Source: Planctomycetota bacterium
GTDB taxonomy: Bacteria; Planctomycetota; Phycisphaerae; Sedimentisphaerales; Anaerobacaceae
DNA length: 35,565 nucleotides
Reading direction: 5' to 3'
Assembly (NCBI GenBank): GCA_023481165.1
Contig: JAMCWO010000329.1
Location: forward strand, 1-35,565
The translations under genes and the position numbers were made by a program. The notes under the pieces are model-generated. The model saw nothing but the letters and a program-made list of their open reading frames with translations, had not been told where the DNA came from and did no database searches. This document shows, one piece after another, positions 24,534 through 31,962 of this stretch (the stretch's first letter is position 1; each line of letters opens with the position of its first letter).

Positions 24534-25163
24534 TCACTTTCGCGCAGCGTGTAGTTGCGTGGCCAGGAGCTGCTTGAGCAGGGCCATGTCCTCCTCCATG
24601 CTGTCCCGGGTCTCGGGGACGCGGAAGGCTACGGCCGGATGGTAAGTCAGGAAATACTGCCGGCCGTCGCGCGCGACCACTTCGCCATGGATCTGCCGCA
24701 GGCTCCGCTGATCCTTTAGAACCTGCTGCAGGGCAACCCGGCCCAGGAGCACGATGATCGATGGGTCCACCAGATCGATCTGCCGATCGAGCCACGTCGC
24801 CTGGCAGATATTCAGCTCGTTCGTGTGCGGCGTGCGGTTGTTGGGCGGCCGGCACTTGACGCACGAGGTGATGTAGACCTCCTCCCGCTTCAGGCCCGCC
24901 GTCTCCAGCAGCCGGTTGAGGAGCATCCCGGAGGGCCCGACAAACGGGCGGCCCAACCGGTCCTCTTTGCCGCCGGGGGCCTCGCCGATGAAGAAGACTT
25001 CGGCGCCGACCGGACCCTCCCCCGGAACCGCGTGAGTCCGGCTCTTATGCAGGGGACAGCGCACGCAGACCCGAATCCCTTCATCCAGTTCGTGCATTCG
25101 CCTTTGCCGTTCTTGCTTGGTCATAAACGCGAATTCCCTGGCGGATGTATCTTCGTTCATCAT
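24534..25163 (-). CDS. Family 4 uracil-DNA glycosylase (4Fe-4S)
   Basis: 209 residues. It removes uracil from DNA as the first step of base-excision repair. The four cluster Cys are visible as Cys33, Cys36 (CVRC), Cys104 and Cys120, with spacing of the family 4 type. Active-site motif 1 is GEAPGGKEDRLGRPFVGPSG (residues 60-79) and motif 2 is HPAVAFR in the C-terminal third. There are two ATG choices at 25163 and 25160, and another Met at residue 14. It is a single gene on the minus strand, convergent with the dodecin-lipoprotein pair. An inverted pair of a 19-bp repeat flanks it. Confidence 0.94.
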   Translation of the reverse strand: MMNEDTSAREFAFMTKQERQRRMHELDEGIRVCVRCPLHKSRTHAVPGEGPVGAEVFFIGEAPGGKEDRLGRPFVGPSGMLLNRLLETAGLKREEVYITSCVKCRPPNNRTPHTNELNICQATWLDRQIDLVDPSIIVLLGRVALQQVLKDQRSLRQIHGEVVARDGRQYFLTYHPAVAFRVPETRDSMEEDMALLKQLLATQLHAARK

Positions 25164-25397: not shown

Positions 25398-26213
25398 ATG
25401 GAAAGCATCTTGAACCAGAGTTATAAGTTGTTGAGCGGCTATTCGATGCCGGTTCTGGGGCTGGGCACCTGGCGGCTGGTCGGCGTAGCTTGCGAGCGCA
25501 TCGTGAGCGAGGCCCTCGAACTGGGTTACCGGCATATCGACACGGCGGAACTGTACGGCAACGAGGCCGAGATCGGCCAGGCGATTCGGAGCGTCGCGCG
25601 GGGGGAGCTGTTCCTCACGTCCAAGGTCAGCAGTGCGAATCTGCGGACGAATGATGTCATTCGCGCCTGCACCGGGTCGCTGGAGCGTCTGGGCACCGGC
25701 TATCTGGACCTGTATCTGGTTCATTGGCCAAACGACGAGGTTCCTATCGCCGAGACGATGGAGGGCATGCAGTATCTCGTCGAAGAGGGAATGATCCGGA
25801 GCATGGGAGTGAGCAATTTCGACGTGGGCCGCTTGCGGGCGGCGATGGACGCATCCGACATCCCGGTCTGCAACGATCAGGTGGAGTATCATCCGTACCG
25901 GCCCCGCCGGGAACTGCCGCAATTCTGTCAAGAGCACGGTGTGGCCCTGACCGCCTACTGCCCGTTGGGAAAAGGCCGGGTCGTTCGCGATCCCACGCTG
26001 ACCCGAATCGGACAGATGTATGGAAAGTCGGCCTCCCAGGTCAGCCTGCGCTGGCTGCTGCAAAAAGGGGCTATCGTGATCCCGAAGGCCGGCTCCGTCG
26101 AGCACCTCCGGGAGAATGCACAGATGGATGGATGGGAACTCACGCCGGAGGATATGCGCCGGATCGAGGAAATGGGGATCGAGATGAAGCTTGTCGATGC
26201 CACGTACACGTAG
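25398..26213 (+). CDS. Aldo/keto reductase
   Basis: 271 residues, typical for a prokaryotic AKR of the 2,5-diketogluconate reductase-like group. It is an NADPH-dependent reductase of aldehydes and ketones. The catalytic tetrad is complete: Asp48, Tyr53 (HIDTAELYGNE), Lys76 (TSKVSS) and His109 (LVHWPN). The signature GMIRSMGVSNF follows, and the cofactor segment IVIPKAGSVEHLRENAQ is near the C-terminus. The start ATG at 25398 has GAAGGG very close upstream. Its TAG overlaps the Shine-Dalgarno (AGGAGG) of the Pol X-like gene, so the two are co-transcribed. The physiological substrate is unknown; methylglyoxal is one option, given the gloB-like gene elsewhere in the window. Confidence 0.93.
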   Translation: MESILNQSYKLLSGYSMPVLGLGTWRLVGVACERIVSEALELGYRHIDTAELYGNEAEIGQAIRSVARGELFLTSKVSSANLRTNDVIRACTGSLERLGTGYLDLYLVHWPNDEVPIAETMEGMQYLVEEGMIRSMGVSNFDVGRLRAAMDASDIPVCNDQVEYHPYRPRRELPQFCQEHGVALTAYCPLGKGRVVRDPTLTRIGQMYGKSASQVSLRWLLQKGAIVIPKAGSVEHLRENAQMDGWELTPEDMRRIEEMGIEMKLVDATYT

Positions 26214-26222
26214 GAGGACGGT

Positions 26223-27095
26223 GTGAAGAAGACAGCGAGCAGCAACGATGAGATCGCCGATACGCTCGACCACGTAGCCGATTTGCTCGAGCTGGAGGGC
26301 GAAAGCAGTTTTCGCGTACGCAGCTATCGCAACGCCGCTCAGACGATCCGCGACCTGGACACGCCGGTCCGTGAGTTGATGAAGCAGGATGGAGAGCACC
26401 TGCTCAAGGATCTGCCGGGGATCGGCGATAAGCTCGCGGGCTCGATCAAGGAGATTGCGACCACGGGCCGGCTGGGACTGGCCGAGCGACTCGAACACGA
26501 GACCTGGCCCGGCCAGCTCTTTACGCAGGTGCTTGGTATCGGGCCGGAGTTGGCCCGGCGCATCCACGAGCAACTCAAGATCAGCACCCTGGAGGAACTG
26601 GAACTGGCCGCGCACGATGGACGCCTGGAGCAAGTGAAAGGAATCGGCCCGGAGCGGGCGGAGGGTATCCGTGTGGCCCTGGCCGGCATGCTCAGTCAGT
26701 CGTCGCGGCGGAGACTGCGGCAGGCCATTCGGGAAGAGGCGCCCAGGCAAGAGCGTCCGTCCGTCGATCTGCTCCTGGAGATCGATGACCAGTACCGCCG
26801 CAAGGCCGAGCGGGACCAATTGCGCAAAATCTCCCCGAAGCGGTTCAATCCCGAGGGCGAGGCATGGCTGCCGGTCCTGCGCACCCAGCGCCAAGGCTGG
26901 AGCTTCACCGCGCTATTTTCCAACACCGCCCTGGCCCACCGCAGCGGCAAGACGCACGATTGGGTCGTGATCTACTACGAGAGGGCGGGCGAGCAGCAGC
27001 AAGGCACCGTCGTGACGGCCGAGCGCGGACCGCTGGCCGGCCAACGCGTGATCCGGGGTAGAGAGCGGGAATGCCGCGAGCATTACGGCTTATGA
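26223..27095 (+). CDS. DNA polymerase X-like N-terminal/HhH protein lacking the polymerase domain
   Basis: 290 residues from a GTG with AGGAGG five bases upstream. Residues 8-60 match the 8-kDa helical domain of family X polymerases (IADTLDHVADLLELEG, FRVRSYRNAAQTIRDL). Three helix-hairpin-helix motifs follow: DLPGIGDKLA (about 63-72), VLGIGPELA (103-111) and VKGIGPERA (138-146). The protein then departs from Pol X: no nucleotidyltransferase GS/DxD motif and no PHP domain. Instead there is a compact C-terminal region (about 190-290) with RFNPEGEAWLPVLRTQ, FTALFSNTALAHRSGKTHDW and VVIYYER. It probably binds gapped or branched DNA. The role of the C-terminal region is unknown. It is co-transcribed with the aldo/keto reductase, and its stop overlaps the convergent marC stop. 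Confidence 0.8.
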   Translation: MKKTASSNDEIADTLDHVADLLELEGESSFRVRSYRNAAQTIRDLDTPVRELMKQDGEHLLKDLPGIGDKLAGSIKEIATTGRLGLAERLEHETWPGQLFTQVLGIGPELARRIHEQLKISTLEELELAAHDGRLEQVKGIGPERAEGIRVALAGMLSQSSRRRLRQAIREEAPRQERPSVDLLLEIDDQYRRKAERDQLRKISPKRFNPEGEAWLPVLRTQRQGWSFTALFSNTALAHRSGKTHDWVVIYYERAGEQQQGTVVTAERGPLAGQRVIRGRERECREHYGL

Positions 27096-30917: not shown

Positions 30918-31343
30918 ATGACAACGACACCAACAGGCGTGAGAACGTTTGATCAATCTCTGGAGACCACGCGCGAGTGGCTCCAGGCGGTGCAGGAGCA
31001 AATGGGACTCGATGACGAGCAGCGGGCGTTCCGGGTCCTGCGCGCCGTCCTGCAGACCTTGCGCGATCGACTGACGGTGGAGGAGGCGGCTCAATTCGCG
31101 GCGCAACTGCCCATGCTCCTGCAGGGAGTGTATTATCATGGGTGGACCCCCACGGGCAAACCGCTGAAGATCCGCACCCGGCAGGAGTTTCTGGATAAGG
31201 TGGCCGAGGGCTTGATGCGCCAGCACGATCCGGAAGAGGCCTGCCGCACCGTGTTTCGCGTGCTCGAGGACAGGATGCCCGGCGGCGTGATTGAGGATGT
31301 CAAACGCATTTTGCCCGAGCCGATACGGGATTTGTGGCCTTAA
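30918..31343 (+). CDS. DUF2267 protein
   Basis: 141 residues from the ATG at 30918. It matches the DUF2267 pattern throughout: FDQSLETTREWLQAVQEQMG, AFRVLRAVLQTLRDRLTVEEAAQFAAQLPMLLQGVYYHGW, then RTRQEFLDKVAEGL and a final LPEPIRDLWP. The family is all-helical, with two similar halves and no known reaction. It is often found among stress-related genes, as here between the BON and HPF-cold-shock genes. The gap to the next gene is 25 bases, so one operon is likely. Confidence 0.92.
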   Translation: MTTTPTGVRTFDQSLETTREWLQAVQEQMGLDDEQRAFRVLRAVLQTLRDRLTVEEAAQFAAQLPMLLQGVYYHGWTPTGKPLKIRTRQEFLDKVAEGLMRQHDPEEACRTVFRVLEDRMPGGVIEDVKRILPEPIRDLWP

Positions 31344-31368
31344 TGCCGGCTCGGGAGGGAGGCCCACC

Positions 31369-31962
31369 ATGAAAGTCCCTCTAGAGATTGTGTTCAAAGG
31401 GATTGAGCACTCGGACGAGGTCGAGGCTCTGATCCGGGAGGAAGCGGACAAGCTCGAGAGAACCTGCCATTATATGATCCATTGCCGAGTCGCGGTGGAG
31501 AAGAGACAGGAGCACCAGGAAGTCGGGAATCCCTACCGGGTTCGCATTGATATGACGGTCCCCCCCGGCCACGAGTTGGTGATCAGGCGCGAGCCCAGCA
31601 AAGGGGATATGCACGATCCGCTGGACATTGTGATCAAGCACGCCTTCGCCGCGGCGGCCCGGCAGTTGCGCAAGCTCGTGGAGCAGCAACGGGGCGATAT
31701 CAAGACCCACCCGGAGCAGCAGGTCATGGCCGTGGTGCACAAGTTGTTCCCGCAGGAGGGCTATGGCTTCTTGCGGACGGTGGACACGCAAGACGAGATC
31801 TACTTCCACCGCAACAGCGTGCTGCACGATGAGTTCGATCGGCTCAAGATCGGCCTGGGCGTCCGCTATACGGCGGAGCTTGGGGAAAAAGGACTCCAAG
31901 CGACGTCGGTGCAGATCGTGGATAAACCGCGAACCCCGGTAGAGGCTCCCTTCCGAGGATGA
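31369..31962 (+). CDS. HPF/RaiA-like ribosome-associated domain fused to a cold-shock domain
   Basis: 197 residues from the ATG at 31369, with GGGAGG upstream; an earlier in-frame start at 31291 lies inside the DUF2267 gene. Residues 1-108 resemble the S30AE/HPF fold (LEIVFKGIEHSDEVEALIREEADKLE, RVRIDMTVPPGHELVI, then DIVIKHAFAAAARQLRKL). Residues about 119-185 are a cold-shock (OB) domain with RNP1-like EGYGFLRT (130-137) and RNP2-like EIYFHRNSV (143-151). Classical long HPF carries a dimerisation domain at this position instead. The expected role is ribosome hibernation or RNA binding under stress. It is the last gene of the BON-DUF2267-HPF string and converges on the second NarL regulator. 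Confidence 0.88.
   Translation: MKVPLEIVFKGIEHSDEVEALIREEADKLERTCHYMIHCRVAVEKRQEHQEVGNPYRVRIDMTVPPGHELVIRREPSKGDMHDPLDIVIKHAFAAAARQLRKLVEQQRGDIKTHPEQQVMAVVHKLFPQEGYGFLRTVDTQDEIYFHRNSVLHDEFDRLKIGLGVRYTAELGEKGLQATSVQIVDKPRTPVEAPFRG

Follow-up and report, generated by a model that had tools for sequence, protein, structure and literature searches.

A scattered bacterial family joins a PolX-type helix-hairpin-helix module to a conserved C-terminal domain and may act as a gap-binding repair accessory

Gene and domain organisation

The window, which is the whole analysed stretch of 35,565 nucleotides from a Planctomycetota contig, carries an intact gene for a protein of 290 amino acids. Its upstream neighbours are an aldo/keto reductase gene and a gene of the uracil-DNA glycosylase superfamily. 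The features of the locus and of the protein are as follows.

24534–25163, minus strand: uracil-DNA glycosylase superfamily neighbour, 1 kb upstream (Pfam PF03167, E 2.3e-35)
25398–26213, plus strand: aldo/keto reductase, upstream neighbour, 9 bases before the gene (Pfam PF00248, E 3.6e-55)
26212–26217, plus strand: AGGAGG, a likely ribosome-binding site read from the sequence, overlapping the aldo/keto reductase stop codon at 26211–26213
26223–27095, plus strand: whole gene, 290 aa, GTG start, intact open reading frame with the stop ending at 27095 (open reading frame list)
26241–26474, plus strand: 8-kDa (lyase-type) domain, HHH_8, residues 7–84 (Pfam, E 8.4e-24; T. thermophilus PolX)
26313–26315, plus strand: R31, at the K35 position of Pol beta (5'-phosphate contact), kept (alignment with PolX)
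26442–26444, plus strand: S74, at the K72 position of Pol beta (dRP-lyase nucleophile), where the lysine is lost (alignment with PolX)
26520–26681, plus strand: thumb-type helix-hairpin-helix pair, HHH_5, residues 100–153 (Pfam, E 9.5e-15)
26760–27092, plus strand: C-terminal domain, fold unassigned, residues 180–290 (conservation; predicted alone with pTM 0.85)

Considering the spacing between them, the aldo/keto reductase and the gene are probably co-transcribed. No promoter-like or Rfam match was found near the gene.

The HHH_8 match provides the 8-kDa domain with helix-hairpin-helix (HhH) motifs that is a trait of the DNA polymerase X (PolX) family. NCBIfam agreed with Pfam on a PolX-type front end followed by 110 residues without any match. 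In the phmmer search, residues 8–165 were aligned to residues 3–160 of Thermus thermophilus PolX (E 1.5e-26). The similarity to the solved PolX chains ends at residue 165, which indicates that the palm, the fingers, and the PHP part are absent. No nucleotidyltransferase palm family was found with Pfam and no PolX-chain match past residue 165 with phmmer, and neither Pfam nor NCBIfam gave a PHP exonuclease match across the C-terminal domain. The first-pass annotation had described the N-terminal module of PolX and, in place of the missing nucleotidyltransferase and PHP parts, a new C-terminal domain, and this description agrees with the searches. The two motifs that it had singled out, FTALFSNTALAH and DWVVIYYE, are both present in the gene product. 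The predicted structure of the full-length protein has a pLDDT of 89.1, and its HhH part was superposed on T. thermophilus PolX with a Z value of 16.2 (155 residues, rmsd 5.8).

Distribution of the family

A scan of genome contigs gave 29 relatives that are 36–60% identical to the window protein. Judged by record titles and tree labels, they come from seven phyla: Planctomycetota, Chloroflexota, Myxococcota, Bacteroidota, Pseudomonadota, Cyanobacteriota, and Fermentibacterota. Plasmid records added members from Gemmatimonadota and further ones from Pseudomonadota, two of which are annotated merely as 'helix-hairpin-helix domain-containing protein'. The C-terminal region is common to all 29 genome-contig relatives; therefore, its presence is not due to chance. 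One relative of 236 aa (L059) is without the thumb part.

A profile search with the C-terminal domain alone, proposed at first pass as a check, was carried out. The domain was found in 6 of 199 genomes of Planctomycetota, the phylum of the window, in 8 of 289 genomes of the class of Limibaculum, and in 1 of 201 genomes of the phylum of the Anaerolineaceae genome, that one being the seed itself. Among the sampled genomes of Myxococcota, the phylum of Corallococcus, it was found in 49 of 193 (48 clear matches and one weak match of 26 residues). The family is thus rare and scattered, Myxococcota excepted. The HhH module lies in frame, 5–25 residues ahead of the C-terminal domain, in 11 of the 12 profile-recruited loci and in all 30 Myxococcota loci examined out of the 49 matched. 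Since this spacing holds in 41 of the 42 loci, there is no room for a polymerase between the two modules. Two observations had been named beforehand that would speak against the unusual build. A full PolX with the same C-terminal region was not encountered among the 42 loci, and a frame-disrupted polymerase gene is at odds with the same build in relatives of several phyla.

At one locus (L065, G202:C156:12901-13239), the C-terminal domain stands alone without an HhH module, downstream of an unrelated gene, and its conserved residues are intact. A whole-protein search was also done over 148 genomes related to that of the window. Besides the match of the window itself, only the one in G008, a genome of the same genus, reached the end of the C-terminal domain. 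This copy (L003:1426-2007) is a relic with a missing front part and one in-frame TAG. In place of its front stands sequence whose opposite strand carries a response-regulator frame, and the MarC and phosphorylase genes are still found downstream. Because G008 keeps only the broken copy, the gene would be dispensable there.

The C-terminal domain was absent from 50,697 phage records, and a scan of viral contigs with two short peptide patterns gave no confirmed match. PADLOC gave no match, and PHROGs gave weak matches in the HhH region only. On these searches, the reading as a phage or defence gene was rejected.

Origin of the HhH module and the K35 and K72 positions

In the tree of HhH modules, the 29 family members form one clade apart from 28 PolX proteins, with a support of 100/100. 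Two positions of Pol beta were followed in the alignment: K35, the 5'-phosphate contact, and K72, the Schiff-base nucleophile of the 5'-dRP lyase. When PolX proteins from relatives of the window were aligned with the family, lysine occupied the K72 position in none of the 30 family members versus 28 of 29 PolX. Arginine was found at the K35 position in all 30 members and in 28 of 29 PolX. The sole PolX exception at both positions is the protein of the window's own genome, for which part of the alignment row was lacking and the sequence is unusual at this place. The loss at K72 and the retention of arginine at K35 were repeated in 10 further profile-recruited members and in 30 Myxococcota members, where lysine at K72 was found in 0/10 and 0/30, respectively.

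The kept arginine and the lost lysine suggest that the protein probably still binds gaps and has probably lost the lyase chemistry. They also argue, at the level of sequence, for the gap-recognition adaptor, one of the roles first suggested for the protein and now the favoured one. PMC9226535 assigns recognition of the 5'-phosphate or dRP group to the 8-kDa domain.

A complete PolX, in which palm and PHP motifs are present, is also encoded in the window's own genome (L002, G000:C367 near 44214), 18 kb downstream on the same contig. A short stretch around its first HhH motif looks scrambled, as if two frame shifts had compensated each other or the assembly were at fault.

Conservation and predicted fold of the C-terminal domain

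Twenty positions of the C-terminal domain are invariant in 29 sequences, and 10 of these are polar. The invariant residues include D188, Y191, P205, R207, N209, S233, N234, D246, W247, T262, T265, R275, and G279, and H239, R278, R280, and E281 are nearly invariant. Nearly all the invariant positions are still fixed in 11 independently recruited sequences. The mean majority share is 0.73 for the C-terminal domain, 0.66 for the thumb, and 0.58 for the 8-kDa part; of the six peptide patterns that led to the first relatives, three lie inside the C-terminal domain, and this may slightly inflate its conservation. The corresponding values in the recruited set, itself drawn by the C-terminal domain profile, are 0.74, 0.69, and 0.65.

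Residues 180–290 belong to no Pfam or NCBIfam family, either alone or when 28 homologues were scanned singly, and the few matches listed had E values of 0.014 or more. The structure prediction proposed in the first-pass annotation, in search of a hidden catalytic fold, gave a confident fold for the domain alone (pLDDT 93.4, pTM 0.85) but no convincing match to a solved one. The predicted order is a helix, strands that are interrupted by a short helix, and another helix at the end, which makes an alpha+beta domain. Foldseek searches against PDB and BFVD returned nothing at an E value of 0.001 or better. The C-terminal domain is a candidate new fold.

Genomic neighbourhood

In the window, a gene with an S30AE domain joined to a cold-shock domain and a gene for a DegP-type protease lie 4–7 kb downstream. 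The former, at 31291–31962, has an S30AE domain of the ribosome-hibernation type. Usp and HSP20 proteins are among the commonest neighbour families of the members, and the neighbours are otherwise diverse. Four HSP20 and three Usp were counted among 110 neighbour proteins of the genome-contig loci, and five Usp among 41 neighbour proteins of the plasmid loci. For the enrichment count, 20 of the 29 loci were used, namely those with a full-length stretch of 10.8 kb; among the nine others is L058, where an HSP20 gene lies directly beside the member. A Usp or HSP20 gene lies within 5 kb in at least 6 of 20 genomes (G346, G350, G351, G353, G357, and G361) against 0.61 expected from whole-genome densities, and the P value of about 2e-5, obtained by simulation, is a guide only, as the families and loci were chosen after the neighbours had been viewed and the null ignores gene clustering. 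Repair genes near members, read from the sequences, are those of a uracil-DNA glycosylase (L033), PolX and LigA (L051), RecQ (L036), and a Nudix protein (L042).

Three plasmid members (L068, L069, and L071) are surrounded by genes for Usp, GroEL, ribose-phosphate diphosphokinase, pyruvate phosphate dikinase, alanine dehydrogenase, and a cation-ATPase, and these surroundings resemble low-oxygen survival islands. The Burkholderia low-oxygen (lxa) locus was considered and rejected, as the genes around the two Burkholderia copies (L070 and L072) are unlike it by eye. The account of this locus in the available part of PMC6127331 names no HhH protein.

No other HHH_8 protein was found in 10 of 20 genomes, and therefore a PolX partner is not needed; a full PolX as an obligate partner in the same cell was rejected as a rule. 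A second HHH_8 protein occurs as a frame of at least 500 aa in 9 of the 20 and as a 272-aa frame in G346.

Discussion

The most likely reading is that the protein is a non-catalytic repair accessory that would bind gaps or ends and be used under stress or dormancy. Its specific form, a lyase-dead clamp of gaps or ends with a C-terminal domain for docking or strand holding, is held with about even confidence. Like its counterparts in Pol beta and PolX, the HhH module would clamp DNA ends that are gapped, nicked, or 5'-phosphorylated, but it would do so without lyase chemistry. The C-terminal domain would then hold the neighbouring strand or a partner, which may be a glycosylase, a ligase, or a polymerase, at the site. 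The stress-gene neighbours suggest that the protein is used in stressed, oxygen-limited, or dormant cells.

The domain build, the loss at K72 with the arginine kept at K35, the separate clade, the superposition of the predicted structure, and the stress and repair neighbours all point to the accessory role, as judged from sequences and models. On the other hand, several points stand against it. The C-terminal domain is more conserved than the HhH parts, and 10 invariant polar residues exceed the needs of a passive adaptor and may mean catalysis. The link with stress genes had caught attention before any count was made, it did not show in 14 of the 20 genomes, and the neighbours are otherwise diverse. 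The broken copy in G008, the only one kept there, also counts against it.

A catalytic C-terminal domain is the chief rival to the accessory reading. The domain would be an undescribed type of nuclease, as was also suggested at first pass, or of another DNA-end-processing enzyme, brought to gaps or ends by the HhH module. We regard this as possible though unlikely. The domain is the most conserved part of the protein, its stand-alone copy in G202 fits an enzyme, and residues for catalysis could be sought among the invariant D188, R207, N209, S233, N234, D246, T262, T265, and R275 and the nearly invariant H239, R278, R280, and E281. However, neither a nuclease family in Pfam or NCBIfam nor a solved fold was matched. 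The conserved acidic candidates for metal binding are only D188, D246, and E281, which are far apart in sequence, and H239 is replaced by asparagine in L057. A bolder form of the idea joins a new fold with a new DNA-end-processing enzyme, brought to gaps by the lyase-dead PolX clamp for polymerase-independent gap repair in stressed or dormant bacteria, and we consider it somewhat less likely still.

The C-terminal domain may instead be a single-strand binder of the PC4/Whirly/PUR type, so that the protein grips the gap and the exposed strand; this is rather improbable. The best row of VIA-align was 2it9 (Z 4.5, 75 residues, rmsd 3.8), followed by two PUR entries (Z 3.7 for both; 64 and 82 residues, rmsd 4.6 and 4.8) and, in lower rows, by bacterial Pur-alpha (Z 3.0) and MRP1/2 (Z 2.3–2.5), but all these values are below 5 and below the background quoted for the tool, and they are tied with those of methyltransferases and lipocalins. 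We take 2it9 and MRP1/2 to belong to the PC4/Whirly/PUR fold class and DUF1818 to be the family of 2it9. Profile comparison of the domain with 30 DUF1818 sequences by hhalign gave a probability of 0.2%, which speaks against this kinship. A single sequence was obtained from each of the PC4 and DUF3276 searches, which does not suffice to build a profile.

A role as a regulator or sensor is less probable again. The HhH module would then attach to DNA without specificity, while the C-terminal domain would recognise a small ligand or a stress protein. The stress-gene neighbours would suit it, as would an HhH module without K72 that is fused to CBS domains on a Paracoccaceae plasmid. However, no known ligand-binding domain was matched in Pfam or NCBIfam, the CBS fusion is a single case, and the kept 5'-phosphate arginine points to recognition of gaps or ends. 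Finally, a decaying or truncated PolX gene without function, to which the broken same-genus copy might point, is highly improbable and is contradicted by the occurrence in several phyla of full-length relatives that share the C-terminal domain, by their strong conservation, and by their separate clade.

The proposed accessory can be compared with the known members of the PolX family. With bacterial PolX (PolX1; T. thermophilus PolX, 3au2), it shares the 5'-phosphate arginine and the HhH module made up of the 8-kDa and thumb parts; structural alignment of this module gives 38% identity over 155 residues. In contrast to bacterial PolX, the new family is without palm, fingers, and PHP, has lost the lysine equivalent to K72, carries the new C-terminal domain, and forms its own clade. 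The available text of PMC12926913 describes PolX1, PolX2, and actinobacterial PolX-like proteins, the last without the polymerase region but with PHP. Like these, the new proteins are PolX derivatives without a polymerase region. In the actinobacterial proteins, however, PHP is retained and the 8-kDa domain is partly lost (PMC12926913), whereas the new family is without PHP and has the 8-kDa and thumb parts whole. NCBIfam PRK07945 is probably this actinobacterial group. Noncanonical PolX, as covered in the available text of PMC9226535, have likewise lost polymerase function within the PolX family, but they keep degraded palm and fingers and a conserved PHP, and most have an intact 8-kDa domain. 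The build of HhH module plus C-terminal domain is absent from the PolX accounts in the available parts of PMC12926913 and PMC9226535, and no description of the family was found among the open-licence papers searched.

The same two papers argue that the importance of bacterial PolX lies more in the handling of DNA intermediates than in synthesis. The new family takes this trend further: both catalytic parts and the lyase lysine are gone, the putative gap clamp stays, and a conserved new domain is attached. It would allow the benefit of gap binding by itself to a cell to be studied cleanly. Members are present in 49 of the 193 Myxococcota genomes, and as the genetics of this phylum is workable, the question can be put to the test.

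The fusion on the Paracoccaceae plasmid (pLA6_003, L073:1582-2556) is annotated as Hypoxic response protein 1. Its HhH module is of the same kind and is also without K72. It carries CBS domains, CBS-type by reading, at the place where the new family has its C-terminal domain.
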